Positions 19,912 through 62,600 of a stretch of 64,000 nucleotides of DNA are shown in pieces. Source of the stretch: Sistotremastrum niveocremeum HHB9708 (lineage: Eukaryota > Basidiomycota > Agaricomycetes > Sistotremastrales > Sistotremastraceae); assembly GCA_001630475.1 (NCBI GenBank), contig KV419424.1, positions 188,931 through 252,930 of the forward strand, written 5' to 3'. Under the pieces are notes generated by a model that was not told where the DNA came from, did not search any database, and saw only the letters and a program-made list of their open reading frames with translations. Position numbers and translations under genes: made by a program. Each line of letters opens with the position of its first letter. Position 1 is the first letter of the stretch.

Positions 19912-21300
19912 CTAGTTGGTAGTCGCATTTGTAAACGGGGTCGAAGCAAAGCCAACGCGGTTATTCGTAGTGTCAAACACAGAATAAAAGCGTTCCAAAA
20001 ACGTCATGCCATTAATGAAATCAAGGCCTTCGCCAGAGTCCGTGCCGAGCTAGAATGACGAGCCAATCAGGTTGGAAAATTAGAACAAGAAAGCTTGGAC
20101 CCACATCACCGACTATCAGGTAAATTGCATCAGCCGTCCCGCCAATATCAGTGTTGAGCGCTCGAGGCCATATTTGTCTGTGGAAGTTTATCGGTGAGTG
20201 CGTTGAGCATCGGATGAATCAGAAGAGAAAGCGTACGCATTTGGAGTCAAAGAGAAGTTCTTTCCGCCGATCAAGAAATCGAGATTTACGAGCGATGAAT
20301 CCGAAGGGACTGTTAATAGTCCCGTAGTCTGGTCCAATGTAGCGCCTGTCGCAGACACATATTGATCGTATGCGTCGGTGGCAAGAAGAACTAGGGTAGT
20401 TCCAGTGTCGACGATTCCCGCGGTCGTTGAAAGAATGGTGGAGGAGCCAATGGAGACTTGTTGATCGATGCCCCAGAATTCACTTGCTGGCGATATTGTA
20501 GTGACGTTGACGAAAGTCAGATCACCAATGAACTTTGACGAATCAACCCCGCCAAAAGTTAGAACGCCGTTCAATGCGGAATCACTGGTAGTTGGCTCGA
20601 ATGAGACGCCAACTACCTCTATTGCGATGGTTCCCTGAGATACAAGGTTATTGGTCACTGTTGGAACGACCGATGAGCCCCCTGGGAAGCTTTGAACAGT
20701 CCCTTCGGTAAGATCGACAGGGCCAAGACCAATAATGCCGTCGACGCCTTCAAATCCTTCAGAAAGAAGTGCAGCTCCGATCGATTGGCTTTTGATCACA
20801 AGATCGGGGCCGAGGGATACAGTATCTGTGCCTGTGTCGATGTTTGAGTCAAGGGATAAACAGAAAAGATATGCATACATACACTCCTCTCCGATGAAAA
20901 ACCCAGAGCCATATTCGACTTCGACGAGCTGACCAGAGCATTGAGTAGTGGATGTCTCCTTGAATCTCTCGCCTGCTCCGACCCAAGTGTTCGAGCTTCC
21001 GGTGTCGACGATGAGAGAGAAGTCGGTGGCAGGAGAGCCAACAGCAACAGTCGCGACGTAAGAGACTGCTTGGTTCTCAACAGTGACGTTTTCACTCGCT
21101 CGTTTTCCCAACTTTGACTTTCTCCCCGCAATCAGGGCGCGTGCACGAGCTTGGTCATGCTCTATGAGCTTCAAGCCACCAGTTTTGAGCCGACGAGAAA
21201 GGGGGAGGTGAACTAGTGGTTCACGAGTCTCGATGACTGGCGATGAGAGTACAAGGGATGTGAGGGCGGCGAAGACAAGCAGGGAGGGAAGCTTTCCCAT
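19912..21300 (-). CDS. Secreted aspartic protease (A1 pepsin-like)
   Basis: This is a pepsin-family endopeptidase. The start MGKLPSLLVFAALTSLVLSS is a signal peptide, chosen over an upstream in-frame start because it follows a TATA box at the right distance. A propeptide ends near KLGKRASENVT, a likely KR processing site. The first active-site motif is LIVDTGSSNTWVGAG, the flap region is YGSGFFIGE, and the second active-site motif is GIVDTGTTLVLL. The C-terminus reads FINGMTFLERFYSVFD, then NNRVGFAST. Three short introns are inferred, one inside the flap region at about 20825-20875. It lies between the two inverted repeat arrays. Confidence 0.92.
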
Positions 21301-21352
21301 GGCTACCGCGGAATTGGGCTCGACGAACAAGCTGAAGCTCCCTTCTTGAAAG

Positions 21353-21359
21353 TTATATA
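21353..21359 (-). promoter_or_regulatory. TATA box of the aspartic protease gene
   Basis: TATATAA on the minus strand, about 55 nt upstream of the start codon. Confidence 0.5.
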
Positions 21360-22139
21360 CGAGCAAGACAGGCTGGTGAGAGGGCGCGGCTGACAATTCT
21401 CCAGCATATCAAGAATAGCACGGCAGTCGGCATGCCGCTTTGTTACTTCTGCACGACTGCGACGCGAAGACGATGTCATGAGGTTCGGCTAATTTTAGAG
21501 GCAAAAGTACTTTACTGACCATAGTGGAATGCCGTAGAATCCCGTTATCTAAACTGGCAGAGTTTGTCCATTGATACACACATGCACGTTTGAAGAAGTC
21601 GGACATATACGTGGTGATCACTGATCAAAGCCTTCGAGATGCTGATCCTTGGTATTCCGGCTGATCCAAAATCTAGTAGTCCGGCACCATAGACAGTAGC
21701 GTGTTGGAACAACTAAGGAGCAAGACATTCCTTGAATGACGCAGTCGAGCGGTGTGGCTGTCAGACTTTGAGACGACTGGCCAGCCTGGCAGCATCGATG
21801 TGTCAGCGGCACGAGAGCGAGAGAAGATAGGCGGTGGATACTGATAGTCGTTGATCACGCAAGGCAGACTGTTATCAGTGAGCAAGAAGCGTAGCCTAGT
21901 GAGACATTCTGTCCAGTATTAATCAGACGGCGAGCTCAGGCTTATCGTGTGGTGGGTCAACGTCGGAAACAAAGGCGCCGGCGCCAAACCCTGAGAGTCT
22001 CAGACTTCTTTATCGCCCTGTCAATCTCGCGGCAAGTTTACATATGCTCTATCAGGCTAATCATATTGCGACAAGGGTGGAATCATCATTGCAAACGAAA
22101 TGTATGATACTGGATATGATGAGCTGGTGAAGTGAAACT
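21360..22139. other. Gap holding a PEBP relic
   Basis: Apart from the PEBP-like fragment annotated separately at 21.7-21.9 kb, no gene or repeat boundary is recognisable here. The right part grades into the 3' sub-repeats of unit C. Confidence 0.35.
21725..21915 (-). pseudogene. Relic of a PEBP gene 5' end
   Basis: The stretch aligns with the promoter and signal-peptide region of PEBP copy 1 (about 16080-16255). Shared anchors in the same order are GAGCGAGAGAAGAT, TGATAGTCGT, GAGCAAG and GTGAGACATTCTGT. The start codon and the rest of the gene are missing. It suggests that a PEBP gene once stood at this side of the array too, so that PEBP gene and repeat units were duplicated together. Confidence 0.45.
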
Positions 22140-30712: not shown

Positions 30713-31528
30713 TTGGAGCGAGAAGAAGGACGTTCGACAGTTCTCAGAATGTGCGATGCATGTGCAAGAGCACCCGCTAAGCTGTAGCCGATACATGATC
30801 ACGGTGAACGAAAGGATATCGGAATATGACGTCGTGATGCATTTGTCATGCCATTGACCAGAGACCCCAACGGAAGCGCATGAATGAAGCAGATAAGATT
30901 GCCTTGCAGATCCGGAAATCTTAAAGCTTTGCCGACAGCCACGTTCTCGATCAGATTAACCTTCCAGTCGCTCCGAATGATTAGCAGTCTTAGCATTTTG
31001 ACCACAGACCAAGGCATTGTCTTTGACCTTGGGACGCGACGAAAACGTCTTCGGCGTCATTGAGAAAGCTTCTTTCCGCAGTGAAAGATGATTATGATCC
31101 CGGACAGAAGTACTTGAGCAGCGCCATGTTGGTTCTTCGACAGATTCACCATTGAGCGGGTTGGCTGAAAGGAGATGCATTCCAGATGCAGCAAGTCGCC
31201 CATATAACTAGACGTTGTCAGGCATCAGTAGTGGAGTTCAGTGCAAGCGAGGCCCCCAATGACGAAGAACATTGTGGTTCCGAGTAGCGTTTCATTTTAA
31301 GCGCTCGTCGGGTTTGCTCGATCATCTTTTGCGGTAGCATTTTATTCGCCATGTGAGCTTACTGGCATGTTCCAGCTGCTTCAGCCCATTCATTTTAAAG
31401 CCATATTTTATTGCAAAGGCAGGCAAGATGACCATGCCATTTATTATGAAAACTTCTTCTGCGCCCCACACTACTTCAAATCGAATGGAGAAATGCTTAC
31501 TACCCCCATCCATCCGGCAATGGCGCGA
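30713..31528. other. Gap between PEBP copies 2 and 3
   Basis: About 800 bp with only unconserved open frames. No repeat family, RNA or gene is recognised. Confidence 0.35.
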
Positions 31529-31967
31529 CTACGACGTTGTCTTATTGGCACTGACGGTGATGAAATTTCCGGCCAGTGGGGGTCCAAATTTAAACTGCTC
31601 GGCAAATGCAGAAATATTGAATCCAGAGATAGGTGTCGTTAGGGAGGTGGGAAAGTCTGTCGGTTGCTCGAACAGCAAAAAAGTGTATCTTAATCGGAGG
31701 TAGGTTAGCTCGGGCCTAACATCCGTCATAGGATGACACTAACCTGTGAGGGTCAGAGCCATCGGGGGGTGTCGGCTGTAGATAATTGCTCAATGCGGCT
31801 GTGGTGTTTACTAGTACACCGTTCTCCAATTTGAAGCCGCCTCCCAAGAAATGCCGGATCTGGGCAACGGTGGGGTCTTGAGGAGTAGGAGCGTCGGGGT
31901 CTTTAGAGGTCTCGTCATCGATCGCCAAAGTGAAACCATACAAATTTACTCACCGACCATTGCAACC
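31529..31967 (-). pseudogene. PEBP copy 3, 3' half (cut off by the element)
   Basis: Exons encode DPDAPTPQDPTVAQIRHFLG, TAALSNYLQPTPPDGSDPHR and the C-terminal FNISAFAEQFKFGPPLAGNF, ending in a stop at 31529. Upstream it breaks off within the exon that normally reads VVAMVG: only GCAATGGTCG and the GTGAGT donor remain before element sequence begins at 31968. The missing 5' half lies at 37603-37972 on the same strand. Confidence 0.85.
31959..31967. repeat. Left target-site duplication
   Basis: ATTGCAACC, the same nine bases as at 37603-37611. On the minus strand it reads GGTTGCAAT and belongs to the PEBP codons Val-Ala-Met. Confidence 0.85.
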
Positions 31968-31997
31968 CATTCTCCTACCCAGAGCTTGTACCTCCGC
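31968..31997 (+). repeat. Left terminal inverted repeat
   Basis: Starts CATTCTCCTACCCAGAGC and pairs with the reverse complement of 37573-37602. Confidence 0.85.
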
Positions 31998-32115
31998 ATT
32001 CGCCTCGTTCGAAACTCCTACCGCAGGGAGAGGGCAGAGGGCATATGACGAGAATGTAATTACATCAGCGAATATATCCGAAGTTTAAGCGAACGAAGAG
32101 GCGAGCGTCGGTACA

Positions 32116-32140
32116 AACCTCTGGCGGAAAACACCTCCGG
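32116..32140 (+). repeat. Left inner inverted repeat (25 bp)
   Basis: Perfect reverse complement of 37438-37462; core GGCGGAAAACACC. Similarity extends outward with mismatches to a CGAACG word on both sides. It lies about 60 bp before the helicase start codon, so it may double as transposase-binding site and promoter element. Confidence 0.85.
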
Positions 32141-32201
32141 ATTGCGATCCGAGTCCGAAGCGCTCGTCGATTCCTTTCTTCAGCGTGACACGGTCTATTC
32201 A

Positions 32202-34586
32202 ATGGACAAGGGCAAAGCAACAGGCGCGTCCTCGACGCAGCAAGATATTATTTCGGACGAAGATATCACTGACATCAAAATATCCGAAAAGACCGAAAAA
32301 ATTCTGGGCCAAAAACCGTGTAAATGGCAGATTGCAGCGTGTCAAGCTCAGCTGCAGCAAAAGAATGCCATCGTCGTCGCAGCAACAGGCGCGGGCAAGA
32401 CACTCCCGATGTGGATGCCCCTCCTCTTCGAAAAGAACACCATTATTCTGGTCATCTCGCCCTTGACTATTCTGTCTCAACAGCATCAGAAAGCTCTCGA
32501 AAAGCTGGGCAATAAATCTATTTCACTTACGCGTCCTCAGTGCAAAGCCGGTATGGAACAGGCGCGTCATTCGACTTGATTTGATGCCTCTACCATACTG
32601 AAGATCCATTAGAAGCTCTTAAATTATCAGGTGATCGTGACCTCACCGGAAATTGCACTCAAGGAGGTTTTGATGCTGAAGTACTGGGAGAAGCTCAAAG
32701 TTGCAAAGGGACGACCTCGAATTCGAGTTGTTGTTGACGAAGCTCACTGTCTAGAATCCTGGAGAGTCTTTCGAGAAGATTACGGTCAGCTCAGACAACT
32801 TCAGCACCGTTTACCGGAGCGCACGACCTGGTACCTGACATCGGCGACTTTGCCATTACCTGCTCGAGAACGGTTATGTAGTCTTCTTGGTCTTCGAAAG
32901 AACCGGACTGTCTCCATTATCCGGTCAAATGATCGCCGCAATATCTATTATGTCGTCAAGAGAATGGAACACACTATGACATCAAAAAACGATCTCACCT
33001 TCCTCGTACCACCGAACGTCACAAACGAGAGCCCGCCTCCTCCAAAATTCATTGCTTTCTTTAGATCTCGGAAAGAAGCAGAGGAAGGGCTCGAGAAATT
33101 GCGACAGCTGGTTGGTGAGACGTGGCGAGCAAAGATCCGCCTGGTCCATGCTGGTCTGACACAAGGCTATCGAGAGAGATCAATCGCAAAGGCAGATGAG
33201 GGCGAGATTTGGGGCATAACAGCAACTGTGGCGGCGAGTATGGTCAGTACCAGACTAGCCATGATGTTGGAAACGACTCAACGAAAGGCAGGGGGTGGAC
33301 ATGAAGGGGATTACTCAGGTCCTAATTTATCGGCCGCCCGATGATATCAACACGATATATCAAGAACTCGGTCGTGCGGCTCGGAATCCGAACGAGCAGG
33401 CGGTAGGGATGTTGATGGTGGAAAAGGAATTGTTTGAGGAGTATCGAGACACGAAAGCAGCAGAGGCGTTGGCAAAGGCAGCCGAGAAAGAAGCGAAGAG
33501 GTTGGCGGAGGAGGCCACTTCGACGACCAAGCGGAAGGCCCAGGAAGATAAGGAGAATATGCCGCCGCCGGAGGTGGTACCGTTGAAGAAAGCACGCATT
33601 GGGGCAACGAAGTCGACAAGTGTAGCAGTGCCAAAGAGCTCAGGACGTGCTAAGGGTCCGGCGGCGCTTGCGGCTAGTAACCCAGGTGCAAAGGATCCCA
33701 CGTACGACACGTTGATCAACGCAGGCTACAAAGGTCGAGAGAAGTGTCTACGCAAGATTTTCAAGAGTTGGTTTGATATATTGCTCAGTGAGTCGATCAT
33801 CTCATCATTTGTTTCCGCTCCTGACGTAATGTTTATGAATTTGCTTCCTCTTTTCTAGCTGCAATGCCTCCGTGCTGCAAACGATGCGAGCCTGACGCTC
33901 CTGTTCACTGCTGCCAAAACTGCGATCCAGACTACTACAATGTCCTGTTCCCAAACGGACTTCATTGCAACAACCCACCTTCCAACCACGCCGCCGTCCC
34001 CGGGAAATTCAAACTGGACTCGACGTACATCATGTCCGACGCCGAGAAGAAACTGTTTCGTCAGATCCTGAAGTGGAGAGACTGTTTAGAAAGAGAGGTA
34101 TTAGGTTTGAGGGCTGGAATGGCAGGCGGGGGGCTGATATTGCCAACAAATTCGGTGCGCCGGATTGTTGATCTACTACACTACAAGAAGGTTTCGAGTT
34201 TGGAGCAACTAAAGGCACAAGTCACCTGGGTTTACTGGAACGAGTATGGTCAGCGTCTCGTGGACGAACAACTCCGGCAACACCTCATCCCCCCAACTCC
34301 TGCCACACCAAATCGCCGTGTCCTAGCCGAGAAGGGCAATGCATCGGGCAGTACGTCTCAGGGCACTCCAAAAGTAATGAAGTGCGGACAATGTCAAGGA
34401 TTGGGGCACACCAGTGAGTGATTAGTTTGCAATAATTTTTATCATGATCTTGTCCTCTCATGCATATCTATTGCAGAGGCGAGTCGTCTCTGCCCAAAAT
34501 ATGATGCTACGACACCACGGCGAAAATGCCCTATGGGACCCCCTGGAACCCCAGCTACCCCAACACCCTCCGCCCACCAGTTGTAG
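32202..34586 (+). pseudogene. Element-borne RecQ-type DNA helicase
   Basis: This is a superfamily 2 3'-5' helicase. After the start MDKGKATGASSTQQD come PCKWQIAACQAQ, the Walker A AATGAGKT, ISPLTILSQQ, the DEAH box VVDEAHCLESW, the TSATLP motif, and FIAFFRSRKEAEEGL. An intron at 33243-33291 joins ATVAASM to GVDMKGITQVLIYRPPDD and QELGRAARNP, the motif V/VI region. Two further introns follow (about 33790-33857 and 34414-34473). A cysteine-rich part (PPCCKRCEPDAPVHCCQNC) comes next, and a zinc knuckle CGQCQGLGHTKASRLC is near the end. In-frame stops TGA (32577) and TAG (32610) lie between motifs Ia and II. No splice pair of matching phase removes them, so this copy is probably defective unless read through. 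Confidence 0.8.
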
Positions 34587-34654
34587 AGGCAAGTCGGCAC
34601 TTAAATAAAGTGAGGCATCTTATTTGCGCGTCTATACAACTAATGTCTTGTCAT

Positions 34655-37360
34655 TCAGATATTTATATCTATCTCTTGAACCTCCTTTGTCCCAGAGGAT
34701 CCCTCATCATCTCTGTCAGAGACTGCAATCACTCCCACATGCTCCGCCAAACACAGTTCAGCACCCGTCTCCCACCCATTAATAATCTGTGGACCCGTGC
34801 GGCCTGGAATGAACTCGAATACCTTGTCTTCGATGTATTGTTGCGTCAATATAGCCGTGTTCTTCGCAGTGGACGGTCTCGCGTGCCGCATGTTTTTTCG
34901 GGTGATATTGAAGTTCTTCTCAATGATAGTGTGACATTCCCGAAGAAGCTCAATCAGTGGTGAACGCTTGATCAATGTCTCAATGGTGTTGTTTGATCCA
35001 TCGCCTGAATATATCCGTTTGATGGCCAAATTGTTCCGCTCAACAAGCCAATCAACTCCACGGAAGCCATCAGGCTTGCCGCTTGGATTGACTAGCCAGG
35101 AACGCCGGACGGTGTTTGCCAAATCTGTTGAGCACCCATGGTGAAGGAAAGCAAGATGTTGAAGACAATGGGACGCATATTTGTGTTTTCCGCAAGCCTT
35201 GAAGAGGTATGCCATGGGGAGCATGGTGTCCTCAATCCTGCCAACATCGCCATGTTTGCCGGCATGATAATGTTCAAGATACAGAAGCAGTTCTCGAAAC
35301 CAGAGTTGGGCGTTTTCGAAAATATAATCCCTCTCGTCGTCTGGTGCTGATGCTCGGTTGGTGCTGAAATCCCCGTTCGGCAGGAATGTATCCAAGCACT
35401 CGTCTGCAATTGCGACTATATCCTCCCACTCGGGTTTGGTCTTGGCCCACTGTGCCAAACTCTCTATTGTGGGATGGTGACGTTGCACAATAGTCAACAT
35501 GGCCAGAGAAAACCGTGCCTCCGCATCTTGAGCTATCACGTCGTGCATTCGACGAGTCCCGGGTCCACTGGGTGTGTTGAATCGACTCTGATCCTTCGGG
35601 CGCAAGACACCAACGACATCATATATAGAGCCCTCAAATCCAATCTTTGAGACCCTCTCAATGAATATGCGATAGAGTGCGTCACCCAGGGCCATGAACA
35701 AGTGAAATGTGCCCATGAACATCAAAGCATGTTGCATGCGATCGGTATCCATGTTTTCCGGATCATCTTCAACAGATCGACTGCTTTGGGCGGATTCATA
35801 CTTCTCCACAGTGCCGAGGTCACCATGAAAGAGATAAACCCGCCCTTCAACGTGTTCCGGTGATTTGGCTGCCTGTCCGAGGAGATTGTCTATCACTTCA
35901 ATATTCCCCGCGGTAGATGATTCCTTGATATCCATCAATACAGCAGGATGTTGCGTGGTAGCGGCCACTTTCAATTTATGCTCGGTCTCCAATGGTTCTC
36001 CCAAGAACTGCTCGTATGAGCGAAAATCTTGATGAGTCCGAACTAAATTGGCCAGCAGGTGCCAACGAAATCGAGAACGGAGGCGATCCCACTGCTCTGG
36101 TCCAATTGTGGCATCGGAAAGCTCAACTCGCAGCTTTGGTTTCGTTCTGACACCATGTTTATTGTTCGGATTCGTCTCCCAAAGCTCCTTCGAGCATCTG
36201 AGGACCTCAGGATCCAGGCTCGGCATCTCGATGAAGGTTCCGGACGTCATACTGTGGAACGAGCCCTGTTTTGCGGCTGTAGGCTCTGGCGTCGGCATAG
36301 CAAAGTCCACATTGTCATAGGCAATGATAAATTGATCACTGGCACAAGCCTGGATCAGATTCTCTTTACTCTCTCTTGACAGAGCATCAATAATATTGTC
36401 TGCGGAAGAATCCGATGCAGAGAGGCCTGCATGTGCTGCCCAATGGTGGACACGCTCTGCAGCATTCACAGAAGTCAAGAACAGCGAGTTGATCATCTGG
36501 AATGCATTGCATTTGTGATTCATGCTATTCATGCCGATACTGATCACGGTGACCATTTTCTGATGAAGGCGAGCGGTTAGTAAATTGGTTTTGTTTGTTT
36601 GTTGACCAAGCGGACATACCAGTCTGACAATCCCATCTCTTCTCATTTTTAACTTGAGCAATCGCTTCCGAATCTCACGTTCGGCTGGAACCTTGACTTG
36701 CGAGGGCGGAGTCGGATCAACCTCCCCAGCCTCCGGGGTAGCAGTGGCACGCTCCTCGGCAGCTGCCTGATCCAGCATGGCCTCAAGCATGGAGTCTTCT
36801 TCATATTCGTCGTCCTCGCCGTTCTCCGCACTTGGTGTAGAGGTAAAAACAAAGTCTTTCTTGTTTTTTTCGGCGCTTTTGAGGAGCTCTAGGACCGTGG
36901 TGTTTTCGGTCGGGGGTTCGTACGAGGGGTCGCCGGTCATCAAGGCTCCCATCATTCTCCAAGCGGTAGGTGCCCCAGAACGATATTTTTTGGACACGTC
37001 TTCAATGTCGAAGCCCCGGACTTGTGCTTGAGATATGCGGCTAGCAGGGTAGTGGAAGCCACTGGCTATATTTGAGAGGTCGCTGATCTCTCGAGTAATG
37101 GATTTGATTGTCTCGTCTGCCATAGCTTTTTTGACAGGTCGAATACTGTCCTTGTATTCAAATTCCATGAGTGCCATGGTATCCGTCATGATATCTTTGA
37201 AGGAGCGAATGTAAGACTCCCTGAGTAGGAGTAGCCGAGAGTCGCTTGCGTAGAGGACGGCTCGTATCAATGACTTCATATCCAGCTTATTCTCCTTGAA
37301 GAAGTCTGCTATCGAGTCTGTCTGGGACTGCATTTGAGGGCCTCTGGACGATGCTGTCAT
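34655..37360 (-). CDS. Putative transposase of the 5.6-kb element (DUF6589-like)
   Basis: One long open frame contains a 60-nt intron (36560-36619, GTATGT donor, CTAAC branch, CAG acceptor), giving about 881 residues. The N-terminal 200 residues hold a charged, acidic linker (GEDDEYEEDSMLEAM). The central part has FIIAYDNVDFAM (Asp near 329 and 332), then HGDLGTVEKYE (Asp near 494), ALMFMGTFHLFMALGDAL, and toward the end GVDWLVERNNLAIKR (Glu near 754). This order of conserved acids resembles an RNase H-fold DDE transposase with a large insertion. I believe it matches the fungal DUF6589 family, from memory only. Being encoded inside the terminal repeats, it is the best transposase candidate. 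Its start lies about 80 bp inside the inner repeat. Confidence 0.7.
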   Translation of the reverse strand: MTASSRGPQMQSQTDSIADFFKENKLDMKSLIRAVLYASDSRLLLLRESYIRSFKDIMTDTMALMEFEYKDSIRPVKKAMADETIKSITREISDLSNIASGFHYPASRISQAQVRGFDIEDVSKKYRSGAPTAWRMMGALMTGDPSYEPPTENTTVLELLKSAEKNKKDFVFTSTPSAENGEDDEYEEDSMLEAMLDQAAAEERATATPEAGEVDPTPPSQVKVPAEREIRKRLLKLKMRRDGIVRLVCPLGQQTNKTNLLTARLHQKMVTVISIGMNSMNHKCNAFQMINSLFLTSVNAAERVHHWAAHAGLSASDSSADNIIDALSRESKENLIQACASDQFIIAYDNVDFAMPTPEPTAAKQGSFHSMTSGTFIEMPSLDPEVLRCSKELWETNPNNKHGVRTKPKLRVELSDATIGPEQWDRLRSRFRWHLLANLVRTHQDFRSYEQFLGEPLETEHKLKVAATTQHPAVLMDIKESSTAGNIEVIDNLLGQAAKSPEHVEGRVYLFHGDLGTVEKYESAQSSRSVEDDPENMDTDRMQHALMFMGTFHLFMALGDALYRIFIERVSKIGFEGSIYDVVGVLRPKDQSRFNTPSGPGTRRMHDVIAQDAEARFSLAMLTIVQRHHPTIESLAQWAKTKPEWEDIVAIADECLDTFLPNGDFSTNRASAPDDERDYIFENAQLWFRELLLYLEHYHAGKHGDVGRIEDTMLPMAYLFKACGKHKYASHCLQHLAFLHHGCSTDLANTVRRSWLVNPSGKPDGFRGVDWLVERNNLAIKRIYSGDGSNNTIETLIKRSPLIELLRECHTIIEKNFNITRKNMRHARPSTAKNTAILTQQYIEDKVFEFIPGRTGPQIINGWETGAELCLAEHVGVIAVSDRDDEGSSGTKEVQEIDINI

Positions 37361-37437
37361 TTTTTCGTCTGTAATTACAACGTGACACTATGTGACAATG
37401 GCATGGAGCGCGGAGCGCGGATTCCTCGGGTCGGAAA

Positions 37438-37462
37438 CCGGAGGTGTTTTCCGCCAGAGGTT
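37438..37462 (-). repeat. Right inner inverted repeat (25 bp)
   Basis: Perfect partner of 32116-32140, 140 bp from the right end and 78 bp upstream of the transposase-like start codon. Confidence 0.85.
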
Positions 37463-37572
37463 CATACAGTCGCTCCTCCATTGCGTTCGGCTAAGCTCCT
37501 GTTATCTCCGCCCGCCCATATCACCTCCGCCCTTGTCCTCCCCGCCCTCGGATTGATAACGCTTTGGAGCGA

Positions 37573-37602
37573 GCGACTGTAGAACCTCTGGGAAGGAGAT
37601 TG
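37573..37602 (-). repeat. Right terminal inverted repeat
   Basis: Its reverse complement begins CAATCTCCTTCCCAGAGG, matching the left end apart from symmetrical A/T and C/G swaps. Confidence 0.85.
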
Positions 37603-37611
37603 ATTGCAACC
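37603..37611. repeat. Right target-site duplication
   Basis: ATTGCAACC, identical to the left copy at 31959-31967. Confidence 0.85.
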
Positions 37612-37972
37612 ACGAACGTCTTTTTCTCAAAGCCAGGAGAAACATCGGAGACTGACCACGTCGGTCTATTCGCCGTCTCTGTCAGGAATATAAGAATGGC
37701 TGTCACCACAGAGTACTGATACGGTCAATCTGACCTGATCTTGGGATATTCGTTCCGAGGTTTCCTTCGCGTGTAAGTCCATCGAAATGGAAGGTCACTC
37801 CGAGAGTGAATATCGGGTTGAATGAGGACAGAACATCTGGAACCAGCTTGGCACGAATGAAAGCAGCTTTGGCTTGCGCAGGAGTTCCTCTGAATCTAGG
37901 TACAAGCGCGGACACGCAGACTGCGTTGAGAGCAAGGGCGCCAGCGAGACACAACAAAAGTCGATGAAGCAT
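37603..37972 (-). pseudogene. PEBP copy 3, 5' half (cut off by the element)
   Basis: The signal peptide MLHRLLLCLAGALALNAVCV is followed by GTPAQAKAAFIRAKLVPDVL and FNPIFTLGVTFHFDG. After an intron come ANRPTWSVSDVSPGFEKKTF and the codons for Val-Val-Ala, where the element begins. Removing the element and one target copy gives KTFVVAMVG, as in copy 2. The host gene was therefore intact at the moment of insertion. A TATA-like ATATAAGA lies about 50 nt upstream. This half may still be transcribed into the element. Confidence 0.85.
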
Positions 37973-38402
37973 GTTTCTCGAGGACGTTACAGTGAGAGCA
38001 TCGTGCCAGCGATCAAGCAGTCTTATATGTCGAGCCGGAAAGAAGACTCTTGGCCACCATCCGCCAGAACCACAACATGAGAAAAAGCAGCCGAGACATA
38101 TGGTCTCGGGATGAGTAGCAATTTCGGTTAATGACATCTTCACGGAGGCGTCATAATGCTTGAGAAATTCATAACAAGTTCCCAGCGAGAACGGCTGGGT
38201 CGCATACTGTGCTCCAACCAGCTGAGCGTGGTCTCTTGAAAATGTGAGTTGGCCGGTCAGGATGAGCTTCGGTGCCGAATTCGATGCCGAGACTCCCGCG
38301 CTTGAACTCAAAGAGGTTGAAGCAACAAAAATATATTCCGCACAGGCTTGTGCGCAATCTCAGAATGACCAACATTAAGAAGCATCACTACGTATCAGTC
38401 GC
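37973..38402. other. PEBP intergenic region
   Basis: Contains the TATA-like site of copy 3 and the 3' end of copy 4; nothing else is recognisable. Confidence 0.35.
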
Positions 38403-44340: not shown

Positions 44341-45603
44341 TCAATAACCGCCATGCGTGTTGATCCCGGCGTAAAGACTGGATGCACGGGACGTCCTCAT
44401 AGGGCCATGGACGGCTTGAGTAACAAAATCTCTACCGAACCCTCCGTTGTTATCTGTATCAACCTGAAGACATTCGCGGGGAACAACTCCTTGCTCTCCG
44501 CGGCCATTGACGCACAAACACCATCCATCATCGTAAGAACTGAGAAGCTCAACGATTTCGCCGTTCGCGATGGGAAGCTCGTCCGGAAGGGTTGGAATGA
44601 ATCCTCGGCGTACCGTTGCCATCTCTCTGCTGGCGGCGCTCAAGGCGGCCAACGTTGGAGGCGCGCCGGGAGGACTGGGAGTTCTGCTCATGGGTTGATA
44701 AGACGAAAGACCGGGGTTATTGATAGTGTTAGGCGGGGGAGCGGGCATGTAAGTTTGACTGTTAGGAAGATCGCGGGGTTCAGGCAAGGGTTTGAAAGCA
44801 TCGTACGGCTGAGAGGCGGGAAGCCTCTCGTTTGCAGCATTCTGGGCATCAGCAGCAGACTGTCGCTTCTCCTCCAAGGCAGGGTACAGTCCTGCACCCC
44901 AAGTGTTTCGGCGAAGCTGACGTTTACGGATCATTCGCTTTCGAACGAAGAAGGAAGCGACAGCGATAATAGCAATCGCGACGAATCCTAATGTAACGCC
45001 TACTGCGACTCCAGAAACATGAGATCCGGAGGACGCGCTGGACGTGGTCGGAGTCTGACTAGCAGATGTAGAGGTTGAGGAAGAGGTGGTATGGTGAGTA
45101 GTTTCAAGGACGGTCGTTGTGAGCGTTGACGAAGATGAAAGCGTGGAAGAGGTCGTCGTGCTCGTGGATGTAGTTGAAGGGATGCTGGAGGAAGTTGTGG
45201 TGGAAAGGGTAGTCGATGAAGTTGGAATGGTCGAATGCAAAGTCGTTGAGGCTACAGGCACTGTAGCGACAGGAGACTTGACAGCTGGGGATGTGACCAC
45301 TGGAGGCTTGGGGGGTGGGATGGTCGTCGGCAATACATGCCCGGGCGTTTCGACGACAGGCGGGATAACTCTGGGGGGCGGGATTGTGGAAATAGGCGGA
45401 ACAGGTGTTTTTTCAGCGGGCGGAACGAGTGGCGTAGTTGGCTCTACAGCATTGATCACATCATGGAACAGAGCTGGGTCCTGTAGACGGGTCAGGATGC
45501 AGAGATGTGCTAGCAGAACAGAGCGTACCTGGCGAACTACCAGCCGTTTGCTGTGGTGACGAGCGAATGCCCGCGCAGCAGGCGAGTTCTGGGAAGAGAC
45601 CAT
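44341..45603 (-). CDS. Single-pass membrane protein with SH3 domain (1)
   Basis: After MVSSQNSPAARAFARHHSKR an intron of 48 nt leads to DPALFHDVINAVEPTTPLVP. A proline-rich stretch is followed by an extracellular Ser/Thr mucin-like region of about 100 residues. One transmembrane segment of about 23 residues starts at GVAVGVTLGFVAIAII and ends before RKRMIRKRQLRRN (stop-transfer). The cytoplasmic part ends in an SH3 domain: ELPIANGEIVELLSSYDDGW, CLCVNGRGEQGVVPRECLQ. The layout resembles fungal Fus1-like or wall-sensor proteins that recruit polarity or MAPK factors; that role is inference. The 45119-45559 open frame on the other strand is a shadow of the Ser/Thr repeat. Confidence 0.8.
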   Translation of the reverse strand: MVSSQNSPAARAFARHHSKRLVVRQVRSVLLAHLCILTRLQDPALFHDVINAVEPTTPLVPPAEKTPVPPISTIPPPRVIPPVVETPGHVLPTTIPPPKPPVVTSPAVKSPVATVPVASTTLHSTIPTSSTTLSTTTSSSIPSTTSTSTTTSSTLSSSSTLTTTVLETTHHTTSSSTSTSASQTPTTSSASSGSHVSGVAVGVTLGFVAIAIIAVASFFVRKRMIRKRQLRRNTWGAGLYPALEEKRQSAADAQNAANERLPASQPYDAFKPLPEPRDLPNSQTYMPAPPPNTINNPGLSSYQPMSRTPSPPGAPPTLAALSAASREMATVRRGFIPTLPDELPIANGEIVELLSSYDDGWCLCVNGRGEQGVVPRECLQVDTDNNGGFGRDFVTQAVHGPMRTSRASSLYAGINTHGGY

Positions 45604-45779
45604 AAAATGCGTAGACAAGACCTAAAGAGTGGAATGCCGCAGTGAGCAGCGAGAAAGAGAGACAGCTATGGTACGGGATAACAAGGGCTGAAAATACAAT
45701 AATATTCCCAAGACACGCGATACATGCGGCATTTCAGTCTCCGATTCAGTCTCCGCTAATATCCTTAACAACAGCCACT

Positions 45780-52107: not shown

Positions 52108-53439
52108 TCAAGACTGAGTCAAATAAGGGTGTTGGATGTGATTGATTCCGATAACGAGACTGCCTCGACGTGCGCCTCGACGAGGAGCCAGGGGCTCAGT
52201 CGATTTGACCGTTGGGATGCTAGAGGTCGAGGCAGAGGCTTTGTGAGAGGGACGCCGATTATTACGAGTTGAAGGCGGCCTGGAGTCTTCAGAAGACTTC
52301 CTGGGAGGAAGTTGAGCGGGTTGCCTTTCGATCAAGCAGCAACGAGGAACAGCGCCTTTCTCAGCGTCCGCGCGCCCGACTCGCTGGCACAATGTCCAAC
52401 CATCCTGATACTCCTGCAACAGCCTGACAGTTTCGCCCACACGAACATGCAGTTCGTCATGCAGCGAAACTTTGAAGGGCTGCTTGACGGTCATGAGGCG
52501 AGGCAGTTTGTTACCATCAGAAGGTTTGACATCGGGTTTGGGAGAGAGGGAGGCACTTCGAAGGGGGCTGGGGACGGGAGGGACGCTATCCTCTTGCTCG
52601 GGGATAATCAAGAGCTTCTGCATGTTACTGATTGGGCGAGAAGGTAACGCCTTCGTAGGGGCGGGAGCAGGGGGTGGCAATTTGCGTTCGTCTCTCACAG
52701 GTTGATCGAGAGGAGGCGAGGTAGATTGCAACGAAGAGGGCGGGGTTGGGGTAGTGACTGTGATGACACGATAATTTGGTGGTGGGGATGTCTTCTCCGT
52801 GAAAGCCATGTTAAGTGTAAGTTTCTCAGTGCTTTCGCTGGCGCTATGTTTAGTTTTCGCGGCCGGAGGACGAGCCGGGAGCGAAGCGCGAAGGGACTGC
52901 CTGATTTTGGCAGGCACCCATCTCGTAGCAGTGTCGGTAGCAATGGAGGGAAACAAGACTGCGGGACGAGGATATCGTCCAGAGGAACTGCGGTTGATAT
53001 CAAAGGCATGGTCGGATATAGGAGACCAAAGCCCTCGATTAGACGATGATTCTTTCTCGTTTAACTTTCGTTTCAGCCTCCACAAATAGAATCTCCAAGA
53101 AGAAATACCTAGTACTATGAGAGACTGGCTTCCTCGATGGCAATGAACAGACTTACAAAGTATTATGATCCCCAGAAAAACAACTACTCCAATCAAAGCT
53201 GCTGTCGTGCCAGGCGGCTTCTGGATGGTAGTGCCTATTGGGCTGGAAGGGGTCGCAACACTTGTATCCGTAGGAGACGCAGCAAGGATCTCATCTTCTG
53301 GTACAGCGCGAATGACAGAGTCGGGAACATAAAAGTCCCTCACAATGACAGGTCTATCGCCTTCCTGAGGCACGGCCCGCTCGAAAATCTGAGCGGACCT
53401 GCGCTCAGTCTGTGGCAAAGGGAGAGCAGCCGGAGACAT
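52108..53439 (-). CDS. Single-pass membrane protein with SH3 domain (2)
   Basis: Begins MSPAALPLPQTERRSAQIFE, with an N-terminal region bearing no clear signal peptide. One hydrophobic segment follows (TTAALIGVVVFLGIIIL), then a 51-nt intron and a basic stop-transfer region (WRFYLWRLKRKLNEKE). The cytoplasmic part is long and disordered, with proline-rich SH3-ligand-like stretches (RKLPPPAPAPTKALPSRP). A C-terminal SH3 domain reads VSLHDELHVRVGETVRLLQE, YQDGWTLCQRVGR and KGAVPRCCLIE. The architecture matches the SH3 gene at 44.3-45.6 kb, so the two may be old paralogues. An upstream non-ATG extension to 53571 was not used. Basic tail RRGARRGSLVIGINHI ends the protein. Confidence 0.8.
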   Translation of the reverse strand: MSPAALPLPQTERRSAQIFERAVPQEGDRPVIVRDFYVPDSVIRAVPEDEILAASPTDTSVATPSSPIGTTIQKPPGTTAALIGVVVFLGIIILCKSVHCHRGSQSLIVLGISSWRFYLWRLKRKLNEKESSSNRGLWSPISDHAFDINRSSSGRYPRPAVLFPSIATDTATRWVPAKIRQSLRASLPARPPAAKTKHSASESTEKLTLNMAFTEKTSPPPNYRVITVTTPTPPSSLQSTSPPLDQPVRDERKLPPPAPAPTKALPSRPISNMQKLLIIPEQEDSVPPVPSPLRSASLSPKPDVKPSDGNKLPRLMTVKQPFKVSLHDELHVRVGETVRLLQEYQDGWTLCQRVGRADAEKGAVPRCCLIERQPAQLPPRKSSEDSRPPSTRNNRRPSHKASASTSSIPTVKSTEPLAPRRGARRGSLVIGINHIQHPYLTQS

Positions 53440-54260
53440 AGGGGAAAGAAAGGGAAAGAGGAAAGAAAGAGCCTTGGCGACTTTGGGCCTGGTGGGACTA
53501 CTTAAGATGGATGGTTCATCATTGATCTTGCAGGAATTGATGGTCGCAGGATGATGGGACTGTAACTCCAATATTTCACGGAGAGAGACCGAGGATCGCC
53601 CTTAAGGTGAACATCACGAGGATTTATACAGCGAGGGCACGAATGCAGGAGCTCGGTCCTCTGAAGACGCAGCTTCAGGTTTGGTGGCACAAGTAAGGAC
53701 CATCTGAAAATATTTTTATCGCCGATTCAACCGACCAATTGACAGAGTGCGCGTATATTCATCAGGTAACATGGAGACATGGATTAGCGGATCACCAGTA
53801 GCACTTAACGGTAAGTACGGCGACGGTGATGGGTACCAGGGGACCCAGAGCCAGACAGATGTCGAGTACGCAGCTGAACTGACGATCTTAGCAGTGAGAA
53901 GACCAGAGAGCTTCTTCAAATATTCAAAGGACTATATCCATATAATCCGGGAGGCAGTGAGCAGTGGGCCAGACTTTGAGAGCGATCAAGATGTGATGGT
54001 GGCAAACAACGCGCTTTGTGGGTCCGTGTTTGCTTGTTCGCTCTCTATTATAGCATCAAATGCAGTCGTCGCCGTCGAGCTATGGGTGTTCCTGATCCTC
54101 CTTGGCTGATAAAGAGTAAGTCAATGCAGAACATATCTTGAGTATATCCTGACCTGCGACAGCGAGACCATGTCCCTTCTTTCAGCAAGGTCGCTGCATT
54201 TTTGACCACAAATGCAACTTTGTCCATTCTATTCGTTCACCGCTCACAATACGCGTCCCT
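53440..54260. other. Divergent region between SH3 gene 2 and the AAA+ gene
   Basis: Holds promoters and probably the unresolved first exon of the AAA+ gene. A 120-codon frame on + (53747-54109) has no recognised domain and is left uncalled. Confidence 0.35.
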
Positions 54261-57200
54261 TTGGGATATGAACTTGATATCACTCTCTCCGACGTCGCAT
54301 CACCCTCTCCATCTCCAGCGGGACAATATTTGCAACCCCACGCCGTCTCCAGGCAGGCATCACCCCCAACGAAGCCAGCTGACACACCCAGAACTAGTGC
54401 CTCAGATGCTTCAGCTCCTTTCCGTCCAAAGCCTGCGAAGCCAATTTTGGGGACTGCATCTTTCCGTGCTGCACTAGAGGAGAAGCTGAAAGTGAGGCAG
54501 GGACTCATCTACAAGCACGTCTCGCAGCCTCCCAGTCCGCCAGATCTAGAGCCAGAGGAGTTCACGTTTGAGCATATTGAAACTCCCACAACCCCTCCTG
54601 AACACAACGAAGAATTTGAACCCACTTTCAATAACATTATCACTTCCAGTACACCCAATCGCTATGGTCAACAGTCTAGCTTTAGCCCGGAGTTCTCATC
54701 CATCCACTCACCAGACGTTCGCGACGTCGATACCGAACTATCTAATCCCACACTGACATACAAATCTCCTGCTGTCTTCACGCGTCACAACCCGTCTGCT
54801 CTTCCTTCGCCGTCTACTCAAGTTCCTCTAAGTAACGCAGGTTCCCCCATCCCATTCAGCTATGATGTTCCTATACGACGATCTCTCGAGCATTCGCCAA
54901 CTCTTTCCACAGTTCGAGCACCTATCCATTCTCTTCCCGAGAACGATTTCCGACAGTCACTTGGTCATCCTCTCGCGCCCGATGATCTGGAGCCAAATGA
55001 CGAACCCTTATCCGATGATGAAGACGAAGACGACGTTACTGCGCGAATTGCTACTGTCAAGGGTCCCTTACGGATACTATCTCCTCCTCGAATTCAGTCT
55101 TCACCCGTATCGCCCGCGTCCCGTGACATTGAGGTGTATGAGGCAGACATGGCGATAAATCCTTCTCAACCCTCTCCACAACCCTCTCCACAACCCTCTC
55201 CACAACTATCTCCTCAGCATTCTCCTCAACCCTCGCCTCGACAGTCTCTTCGACAGTCTCCTCAATATACTCTTCGGCATTCTCTTCGGCATTCTCTTCA
55301 GCATTCCCCAGAACATTCTCCTCAACAGGTTCGTCGTGCAGAAAGCATCGACCTGTTGGAGGAAACTGCGCCAGCAGAAGGATTTTTCAAAGTCGATGAG
55401 AACTTCGCCACTCTATCTCCCCGGCACTCAGATGCTTCTCTGTCATCGGACGGCTCGGACGATGATCACTCCCATCCTCCGGCTTCATACCAAATCGAAG
55501 CTTTCGAGACCCAGAAAAACATCGTGGTATCGCCACCGCCGCCGCCTCCCCCCGAAAATCCAGAACCTACTATGAGTACCCGGCCTTGGCTGAAACAACT
55601 TCGTTTGGTCCGTGTGTTCCTACCCGAGATGACTTCTTCGCTCATTTCTACTGTTGTAGCCCAGCTTATTTGACCCTCAGTCGACGAGCCACCGTTCCTC
55701 TATTTTTATCGCTTCGACCCAGTCCGGCCGCACGGGAACCATCTCGTTACTGGAGAACATCACAATTACTCCCTCACAACCTATCCTTGACGTCCCTGAA
55801 GACTCCGAAAGTCCTACTGATATTGTAAATTTGGCCGATCGCCCGCAACTTGTAAGGTGATAAACATTACATTGTTAACTGCGACTTACCCATGGTTAGC
55901 TTTCTCCTCCGATCGGACCAGTCGAGACCACTCAACCAACATCCTCAATCAGTCCGCTCCTTTCATACTCACCCGAGCCTACTTATTTAACCTCACCGCC
56001 CAATAAGCAATCACGGTTTCCTATGAGACCTCCCCTATCTGCATCATCTAGTGCCCCAGATCTCCATTCATCTCCTTTTTATCCTTCAGCATCTGCTGGT
56101 CCCCGAAGTGCCACTTTACCTAGTTATGAAACCCAGTGGAATCAACCGGGCTCTCCTTCCTCTTCGCAATTCCGCGATGCTCCTTCTACTATAAAATCGA
56201 GTTTACAGAGTTTCAGCATCGACCATCGGTCGCCGCCTCGCTCGCGTTCTGGGTCTGCTTTATCAGTGACATCATCGACATCCGGGATCGTCAACTCACA
56301 ACTATACTTCGCAATTGCTAGCGATCGACCGTCGGAAGTTCAAAGACTTCTAGAAACTGGCGAAGTGTCTCCCAATGATGGGAGTGGGCCTCAGAATCCA
56401 CTGGTGTTTGCTGCTAGTAACGAGCATCTGGAACATAGGAGCGAGATCGTTCGGACGCTGCTTGCTCATGGAGCGGATCCATCAGTTCTGGATAAACATG
56501 AACAACCCGAGACTATTACAGAGAGCCAAGATCCACAGCGGAATTCGCTCAAGGCCTATGACCCCAGCGTTCGGTCGGTACCTTTTCTATCCGTTTCTTA
56601 TGATAGCTTACCAGCAGATAGATACTATCTTTCGCAAGCCATGAACTATAAGGATCATAAGCCTTCCGCTGCGATTAGATCTGTGCCAAAATTTGCACCT
56701 CTTGCAAGGCTACGTTTCAAGCTTATCGGACAAACGCTTGTCCTCGATGAATTCTACCGTGCGCTGAGTATTCAAGCATTGAGAGGGGACAATGTACCAC
56801 TTGTAGTCCTTTTTTGTGGTCAGTGATTTTCATGACTTCTTTCCCCCGGTTGAAGATTTGACATTGCCATGAAGGGCCCTCTGGCCATGGAAAGTCGTTG
56901 ATGTCGAGGCAAGGTATGTCACTTCGACCGCTTTGAAAGGAGTATTTGACACATCCCTCCTGTAGTTGGCGACCTGCTGGGGTGTCCAATACGATTCGTC
57001 AACATGACCACTCTCTCGTCAACACAAGACGTCTGGGATGCAAGGTCGCAGAGCCCCACGACTGTGAGTAGAACCATTTCGAAATGAATCATAGTCTCAT
57101 TTGTTCCGAAGGACGTGATCCAAAGCCTCGGTGACTTTATGTGCGAGAATGAGGGCAAGCGCTGTATCGTTGTCCTTGACGTACGTATTTATCACGATTC

Positions 57201-59612: not shown

Positions 59613-62600
59613 ATGTCTGCGAGAGGAGAGTCGATCCCGCCATACGGACGCGCCAGGTCTTCAACTGTTTCGTCGATACAACAACATAGAATATCTCCTC
59701 CTCTCCCTGTTGGAGCCACCAAAACTTTACAAGCCTGGATTCACCCCGACTCATCGCCCAATGTCTTGCTCAACCCGAACGTGTGGTCAGGCGTTGCGGA
59801 TGGCGACTTGATACAAGTCAGCCCAGTATCAGAATCTAACAAGGGGCCTGACGCACCGAATTTCTTATTCTTTGCAAAATTGGAGGATGACAGTCGTCAA
59901 GCTCGCCTGCAGGTGTGCAATGACAGCCTCAATTATATTGCAATTATGAACTGACAACGTCAAGATATCTATACCTAAGAGCATTGGAGAGACGTTCTCA
60001 ATTAACTCTCATAACGAGGTCAAATGCACGAAGGTACGTTGTTTCTTTCGTGACTGGTGCCACCTTCTGAGACAATGCACAGGTGGATAAGAACGAGTAT
60101 GCTGCCGACTCAATCGAGATTTCGTTCAAGGATCAATATTTGGGACGGTCTGAGATGTGGCGCTTTCTGAGGTTTCTACAGGGACAATGTGTCCATGTCA
60201 ATCAGGAGATAGCGTTCCTTGGTGCTGTGACTGCCAATATCCAAGAGATCTACATCGGAGGACGAAAGGTATGGCATTTGGGACGCATGAACCCACCATT
60301 CTTACTGCGGTATAGGTGACCTCAGCTCATGTTACATCAAAGACGAAGAGTATATTTCGATCGTTGTCTGCCAAAATGACCATCTTCATCCAAGTGTGTG
60401 AAGAGCTTTGGCAGTTCGCGTCGGATGGGGAGAGATACAATGAGAAGATCGTTCATTCCTTCCTCCCAGCATTGGTTCAAAGATGGCGCACGGCAGGGAC
60501 GAATCACACCGTGACCTTGGTCCTCATATCGCGTGTCTTTTACGACGAAAGTGAGCTGGAGTACGCAGCCGGTCCATTGAGAAGAGAAGACTCGTTTGGA
60601 CACCGTTGGTACAAGGATTTCTACAAGGTCATTACTGATCTTGAAGTTGTCCACGATTGGAAACCCACCCTAGCGAGCTTGAAGGATTCTTTCTGGGCTT
60701 TCCAGCGAGACATCCTCCTGACCCATCATTACCACCGAGCTGCTCAAATGCGAGAGCAGGGCCCTACTCGACCAGAGACCGTTCGTCTCGTGGGCAAACT
60801 CTCGTATGCCCATGACGGACCGGTCTTGGAAGCACTCAATCTAGCGCTCAATTCATTGGAGACCCACTACATAGATCGTTCCCTATCACTTACCGGCATG
60901 TCTAATATCCTGATCACACCGGGCACTGGTTATTTCCAAGTCTCAAAGACACTGTTGAAATTAACAACGACACGATTATTGGATCAGGGATTTGGTCTTG
61001 ATCTTGTCTCTCTGGCGAAGCCGCCTCTGCATCGTACCCCCATTTTTTCGTTCCAAGGTGCGCCCGTTGAAAATAACCCCGAGAGGAGAGTGTATGGTAC
61101 AGACGGTCGCGCAAATGATCCGCTCTGGGGTGGAAACGACGAATCTGTTGCGAACAAGACGACCTATTGGTGGGAACCTTTTTGGGTTCTCATAACGTTT
61201 TGGGATCGACAAATGGATCTTCCGTTCCGCAGCGACAGGTATGTCCAAGTCCGTATTCTCTACCTATCTTACGCTGACTTGCTGGTAGATTCGTAGCCAG
61301 ATGCAAGATGCATGAAATAGAAACCCTAGGGTTACTAGAGCATGGCATCTACGCTCCTTTTGCAATTCCTTGGATGCAAACATCGACAGACATCGAGACC
61401 CCCAAAGACGGAGAAGTTGCCAACCCTTTCGAAGCACGGAGGGCCGAAGCAGATCAATACGACAACGATGTGTTTGCACTGGCGAAGCCAGCTTCATTAT
61501 CAGGCCCTCGTATGATGGGATCTTTCACTTCCTCTACTTCTAGCCGTGGAAGTGGAGGTGCATCATCTCCTAGAATGTCATTTGAACAGGATCACCCTAT
61601 CAGTGGCAAGAGGATTGCCGATATGCGGGTCTCCAGCATCCATTCGATAGAGGAGAAACCATCTAGAGAGACATCGCCGGCAAGATCGCGACCTCAAGAC
61701 ATTCCAACTCCATCACGCCCCCTCAGCATTCGGTCAAAGGTTGACGAGAAAAGTCTTGCCACACCTTCAGACTCGATACTCAGTACGTCACCTTCTCAAC
61801 GCTCCATTCGGTCTACGAAATCCATCTCGACAAGCTCGACAAGGAGTGGGAAAGAGGGCCGAAGTTCGGAACATGGAAGCTCAAGTAAATTTGCCCCTAC
61901 TGCTTGGCTGCTCAACGCTTTCCGCTCGGTTCCGAATCCTATTGCGCCCCAGGCTACCATTGTCTCGGCCACAGGGATATCTTCCACTCCCAAGGTATCG
62001 CGAGATCAGCCACCGAACCCGATGCCACGCCCTTCGAGTACGAGACCTATTCCAGCTGTAAGCTCGGTGTCCCGGAGAGCACGAGCATCGCCGGATGATT
62101 CGAGTGCAAGGCTACCCAACAGACTCTCAGTCTTGCGCAATTCACCCGTTGGACTCTCCGCCTCACCTCCCCGAGAAGATGGTTCGTTTGGTTCTCGACG
62201 GTCCACAGTTACCTCCTTGGGAAATCCTACGAATCCGAGACCTCCTGTCAACCCATGTAGGCTGGGAGGCCCGATTCCCTACACACAATCCTCTTTGGCC
62301 AAACGATGGCAGCATAATTTACCCGAGCCAACCTTCACTCACCAAATCAAGTGGAAGTCGTTGGTCACTCCTTGCTGTTTGCCCTTAACGGTCGAATACC
62401 TACCTTCTCAGAACGAACTTGATACCTCATATGATGTGGCTTCATACGATTTTTTCCTTGACCCGTCGGAAACATCGTCTTTCTTAGTCAGACCACCGGC
62501 CGGAGGAATGAAAGGCGACGGAGAGGAAAGTAGAGAGGCCTGGGCCCTCGTCATTTTGAGAGGAATGGCATCACTCCGCCTCGCTCAAGGCTTCCAGTTT

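Follow-up and report, generated by a model that had tools for sequence, protein, structure and literature searches.

A probable AcademH-type DNA transposon with a RecQ-type helicase gene, inserted in the exon of a host gene that is probably PEBP-like

Results and Discussion

The element and its limits

The 64-kb window (that is, the whole stretch of DNA analysed here) contains an element of 5,635 bp, spanning positions 31968-37602, with a G+C content of 0.50 against 0.49 for the window as a whole. It holds two convergent genes with 68 bp between them: a gene for a RecQ-type helicase on the plus strand, and a gene on the minus strand for a protein that matches the Pfam family DUF6589. The features of the element and of its immediate borders are the following:

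31959-31967, no strand: target site duplication, left copy, ATTGCAACC
31968-31984, plus strand: left terminal inverted repeat, CATTCTCCTACCCAGAG
32116-32140, plus strand: left copy of the perfect 25-bp inner inverted repeat, AACCTCTGGCGGAAAACACCTCCGG
32202-34586, plus strand: helicase gene with five proposed exons (32202-32550, 32631-33242, 33292-33787, 33859-34413 and 34477-34586), matching Pfam DEAD and RecQ family models
34655-37360, minus strand: DUF6589 protein, putative DDD/E transposase, 901 aa unspliced
37438-37462, minus strand: right copy of the perfect 25-bp inner inverted repeat
37586-37602, minus strand: right terminal inverted repeat, CAATCTCCTTCCCAGAG
37603-37611, no strand: target site duplication, right copy, ATTGCAACC

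Between the two 17-bp ends, 15 of the 17 positions are identical, and the 9-bp copies on the two flanks match perfectly. The inner repeats begin 148 and 140 bp from the element ends and lie within longer inverted arms of 51 nt, which are 86% complementary and contain the 25 identical bases. The initial annotation had described the inverted ends, the nine-base flanks, the inner pair and the two convergent genes, and all of these were recovered in our analysis; what it observed is real, and the element is a complete-looking DNA transposon. The window holds no second copy of it.

A search of the window with the end consensus given in the initial annotation, allowing up to 3 mismatches, returned two matches, both of them the ends of the element. 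In shuffled sequence the same search gave a mean of 0.51 matches, and 12 of the 100 shuffles held two or more, so that the 17-bp ends taken alone are weak evidence. We also searched for pairs of 17-bp inverted ends (up to 4 mismatches in the pair, spacing of 1-20 kb) that are immediately bordered by a 9-bp direct repeat. The window has one such combination, with 2 mismatches, as against 2 matches in total over 30 mononucleotide shuffles, a comparison that is partly post hoc because the length of 17 bp came from the finding itself.

The helicase gene and the DUF6589 protein

The exon borders of the helicase gene were set by eye from GT-AG signals. Joined in frame, exons 2-5 give 590 codons with a single stop, which is terminal. 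Pfam DEAD scores above its cut-off of 26 bits in the first two pieces of the protein (45 and 27 bits), while Helicase_C stays below its cut-off of 23.5 (18.1 and 16.2). The pieces from exon 2 and exon 1 match the RecQ family model TIGR00614 with E-values of 3.1e-15 and 7.5e-07, respectively; neither score reaches the cut-off set for whole proteins, as pieces of a protein may well fail to do. Against the PDB, the exon 2 piece matches 37 sequences at E up to 1 (best 1.4e-06), nearly all of them RecQ, BLM, WRN, RecQ1 or RecQ5 chains, and by these matches the plus-strand gene has a RecQ-type helicase core. The exon 1 piece by itself is ambiguous as to RecQ: its best NCBIfam row is the non-RecQ DEXH helicase TIGR04121 (1e-08), ahead of RecQ, and among the 43 PDB sequences that it matches with E-values up to 1 the order is DDX47 (0.00034), a DeaD-type helicase (0.004) and, third, RecQ5 (0.0086). 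For exon 3 the PDB yields 12 sequences with E-values between 0.28 and 0.97, of which 11 are WRN. Exon 4, with its cysteine-rich stretches, gives one Pfam row below cut-off and nothing in NCBIfam with an E-value of 0.1 or less.

At the junction of exons 1 and 2 (32540-32640) no tested GT-AG pair keeps both the reading frame and the conserved TSPE region. The search, which covered GT or GC donors at 32460-32600, acceptors up to 32720 and introns of at least 40 bp, yielded 32 in-frame junctions, 3 with a GT donor and 29 with a GC donor. The three GT-donor junctions all use the acceptor at 32701, with which the TSPE region is lost; it is kept by 9 of the 29 GC-donor junctions. The gene may have an unusual splicing or an extra small exon, or it may be out of frame here, and it may or may not be functional in this copy.

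The minus-strand reading frame is open throughout. Pfam DUF6589 covers its residues 419-826 with an E-value of 1.2e-85, and the only other Pfam row, a phage tail family, is below cut-off. Removal of an in-frame GT-AG intron of 60 bp (36560-36619) shortens the 901-aa product to 881 aa, in agreement with the size given in the initial annotation. Candidate acidic positions, picked by eye, are D329, D494 and E754 (881-aa numbering), the first of which falls outside the DUF6589 domain. The 901-aa product gave no match in the PDB with phmmer at E up to 10, and a single-sequence AlphaFold2 model of it was of no use, with a mean pLDDT of 34.3 and every one of its 901 residues below 50. Pfam lists DUF6589 as a family without known function. 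Its occurrence here places this uncharacterised family inside a helicase-carrying transposon, and the DUF6589 protein is therefore most likely a transposase.

The interrupted host gene

On the minus strand, the flanks at about 31500-31958 and 37612-37973 make up an interrupted host gene, which probably encodes a secreted PEBP-like protein. When the flanks are joined with one copy of the 9-bp repeat, 44 residues are open around the junction; this frame stops at ...GFEKKTFVVAMV, directly followed by a GTGAGT donor, and the exon beyond the short intron, read by eye, encodes DPDAPTPQDP. The DPDAPTPQ motif and the splice of that intron were assigned by eye. Among four flank pieces compared with Pfam, the downstream one matches PBP (E 0.0094, below the gathering score), and its best match among solved PEBPs has an E-value of 0.02. 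The other three gave no Pfam match, and one of them, the signal-peptide piece, gave none in a further search either. The PEBP call stands on modest evidence, and the element most likely sits within an exon of a PEBP-like host gene. With both flanks most likely belonging to one gene, the 9-bp repeat is to be read as a target duplication; the open frame alone cannot tell one copy of the repeat from two, since nine bases are three codons.

Foldback structure of the ends

In each end, the terminal repeat and the inner repeat of that same end are predicted to form an imperfect foldback, a feature that the initial annotation had missed:

31979-32124, plus strand: left-end foldback, outer arm 31979-32016, inner arm 32082-32124, 33 predicted pairs
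37454-37591, minus strand: right-end foldback, outer arm 37558-37591, inner arm 37454-37487, 31 predicted pairs

As single-stranded DNA, the 186 nt at the left end fold with -33.8 kcal/mol (z -3.54) and the 178 nt at the right end with -41.6 kcal/mol (z -4.92), and for either end none of 200 shuffles folded as well. The minimum-energy folds make up a very small share of their ensembles (0.0008 left, 0.0053 right); the centroid folds, counted in the same way, likewise have 33 and 31 stem pairs. The local-alignment scores of the arms, 28 on the left and 46 on the right, exceed the best of 1000 mononucleotide shuffles (24 and 26), and sliding windows outside the element reach 28 in none of 5,802 cases, the best scoring 24. 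They also exceed the four scores obtained across ends (13, 16, 26 and 27), for the left end by a margin of one point.

A CCAGAG base is common to all four arms, and the inner arms of both ends are mutually related. Ordinary inverted transposase sites would explain these shared bases and fit the end-specific parts less well. For the foldbacks themselves, seen here in a single copy, two readings fit: the ends may have been selected as a folded structure, or the arms may have been homogenised within an end. There are hints, from this one copy, that the ends work as hairpins. Were that so, the terminal repeat would pair with the inner repeat in each end, the intervening sequence, partly different between the ends and complementary within each, would prolong the stem, and folding would set an 11-base tip beside the conserved inner box CGGAAAACACCTCCGG, so as to make one composite site. 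That the ends act as DNA hairpins, with the element's own RecQ-type helicase extruding or resolving the foldbacks, is a tentative idea to which we give a low chance of being right. Foldback ends could explain, again on the strength of one copy, why a helicase is carried; if the idea is true, hairpin ends would account for the element carrying any helicase at all, and they offer a concrete and testable reason for a RecQ-type helicase in a cut-and-paste element. The literature searched (titles and the beginnings of abstracts, the defining paper lying outside that set) mentions no foldback ends for the AcademH class. We make no claim of novelty for them, and they are the part of the element most worth following.

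Class of the element

Elements of the Academ superfamily have terminal inverted repeats, as has the present one. The AcademH class was reportedly described by Kojima in 2020 (Mob DNA 11:15), a paper that is cited by PMC8290104 and PMC12210899. According to PMC10045372, duplications are 9 or 10 bp long in AcademH and 3 or 4 bp in AcademX, and these lengths are related to the encoded enzyme, a helicase in AcademH and a nuclease in AcademX. AcademH elements are found at low copy number in Basidiomycota, Ascomycota and Mucoromycota (PMC10799480). The present element carries a helicase gene (DEAD above cut-off, with RecQ family matches) and a perfect duplication of 9 bp within the published range. 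AcademH hosts are animals or fungi, and the short GT-AG introns together with the Pfam matches to Iml1 and SH3 in the window fit a fungus. AcademX would belong to the same superfamily as the element if the AcademH assignment holds, and differs from it in having a nuclease and a 3- or 4-bp duplication. The AcademH assignment is probable, and it is drawn from the helicase and the duplication length.

Quite probably the locus holds a transposon of a known kind, AcademH, which is autonomous in type and has inserted into the exon of a host gene that is itself probably PEBP-like. The initial annotation was right in seeing a DNA transposon that combines a helicase of RecQ type with a large putative transposase, matching ends and a duplication of 9 bp; its further claim that the layout is not a standard one is not supported, as AcademH and KolobokH elements are both described in published work. 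In this copy both ends are present, the duplication is clean and the disruption of a host gene is visible. That such elements may be a source of fungal helicase genes has already been proposed in PMC10799480, where TE-derived helicase domains are described as common in fungal host-TE fusions and where the authors also state that helicase domains are not exclusively TE-derived. As to mechanism, the DUF6589 protein would bind the terminal and inner repeats and cut and join the ends at a stagger of 9 bp. Host repair would fill this stagger to give the target duplication, and the RecQ-type helicase may open or remodel the ends or the strand-transfer intermediate. Transposition may thus be helicase-assisted, as the initial annotation suggested.

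Three other explanations were weighed. A separate, unnamed superfamily of DUF6589 elements, resembling AcademH in helicase and duplication length, would agree with the family being of unknown function in Pfam and with the term DUF6589 being absent from the literature searched; we consider it unlikely, since a helicase together with a 9-bp duplication is the very combination published for AcademH in PMC10045372.

Very unlikely is a KolobokH-like element, in which a Kolobok DDD/E transposase is combined with a RecQ helicase. Kolobok elements target TTAA, whereas the present element is flanked by the 9-bp ATTGCAACC. A RecQ-type helicase is present here as in KolobokH, which is known only from fungi (PMC9587614), and in both it lies in a DDD/E transposon, putatively so in our element. 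In KolobokH, by the same source, RecQ lies downstream of the transposase domain, whereas here the helicase is on the plus strand and the DUF6589 protein on the minus strand. This strand argument is not excluding by itself: Kolobok-1_CCri, from a rhodophyte, also has RecQ on the complementary strand (PMC9587614), so that an opposite-strand RecQ is not peculiar to our element.

An arrangement by chance, in which fortuitous repeats happen to enclose an ordinary RecQ-like gene of the host and a gene unrelated to it, is scarcely credible: 17-bp ends alone are not rare in the shuffles, but against it speak the 9-bp repeat and inverted ends taken jointly, the inner 51-nt arms, the foldbacks in both ends and the open frame across the joined flanks.

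A Helitron was also considered and rejected: five ORFs compared with Pfam at E-values up to 1 show no Helitron domain, and the 9-bp duplication is present. Helitrons are not known to make a target duplication. They resemble the element as helicase-encoding transposons, and differ in that the helicase is encoded with an HUH/Y1 transposase (PMC12730594), in contrast to the inverted ends and target duplication found here. KDZ elements, treated in the same paper, are likewise DNA transposons of basidiomycetes; their duplications are 8 bp (Zisupton) and 7 bp (Kyakuja) rather than 9 bp, and the protein of our element matches DUF6589.

Relatives outside the window and other contents of the window

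Searches for relatives covered collections that are viral, prokaryotic or plasmid, and misses in them therefore carry little weight. For the DUF6589 ORF, 1 pattern stretch in viral contigs and 17 in the genome contigs collection were found and none was confirmed, and phages gave no match at an E limit of 1e-5. Helicase pieces returned 3 and 109 pattern stretches in viral contigs, with no relative among them, and the 24-base inner repeat had 0 matches there. PF20231 was found neither in the 1 record nor in any of 14 control genomes, counts that are no proof of absence. The terminal pattern occurs in four stretches elsewhere with one match each; tblastn with the DUF6589 protein against the records of all four gave two weak pieces, both in one record (E 0.051 and 1.2), and the four are therefore taken as chance.

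The Pfam scan of the window covered 10 of the 27 listed ORFs, of which 7 matched at E up to 0.01. An Iml1 N-terminal domain (E 3.3e-88) is encoded at 60316-61296. Together with an aspartyl protease (20188-21396) and, near the start of the window, a class-V aminotransferase (654-1805), it fits an ordinary gene-bearing eukaryotic region. Two separate minus-strand ORFs, 44341-45618 and 52108-53571, each have an SH3 domain in the C-terminal part. The only tandem array reported in the window lies at 55165-55327 and consists of 13.6 copies of a 12-bp unit with 76% matches.
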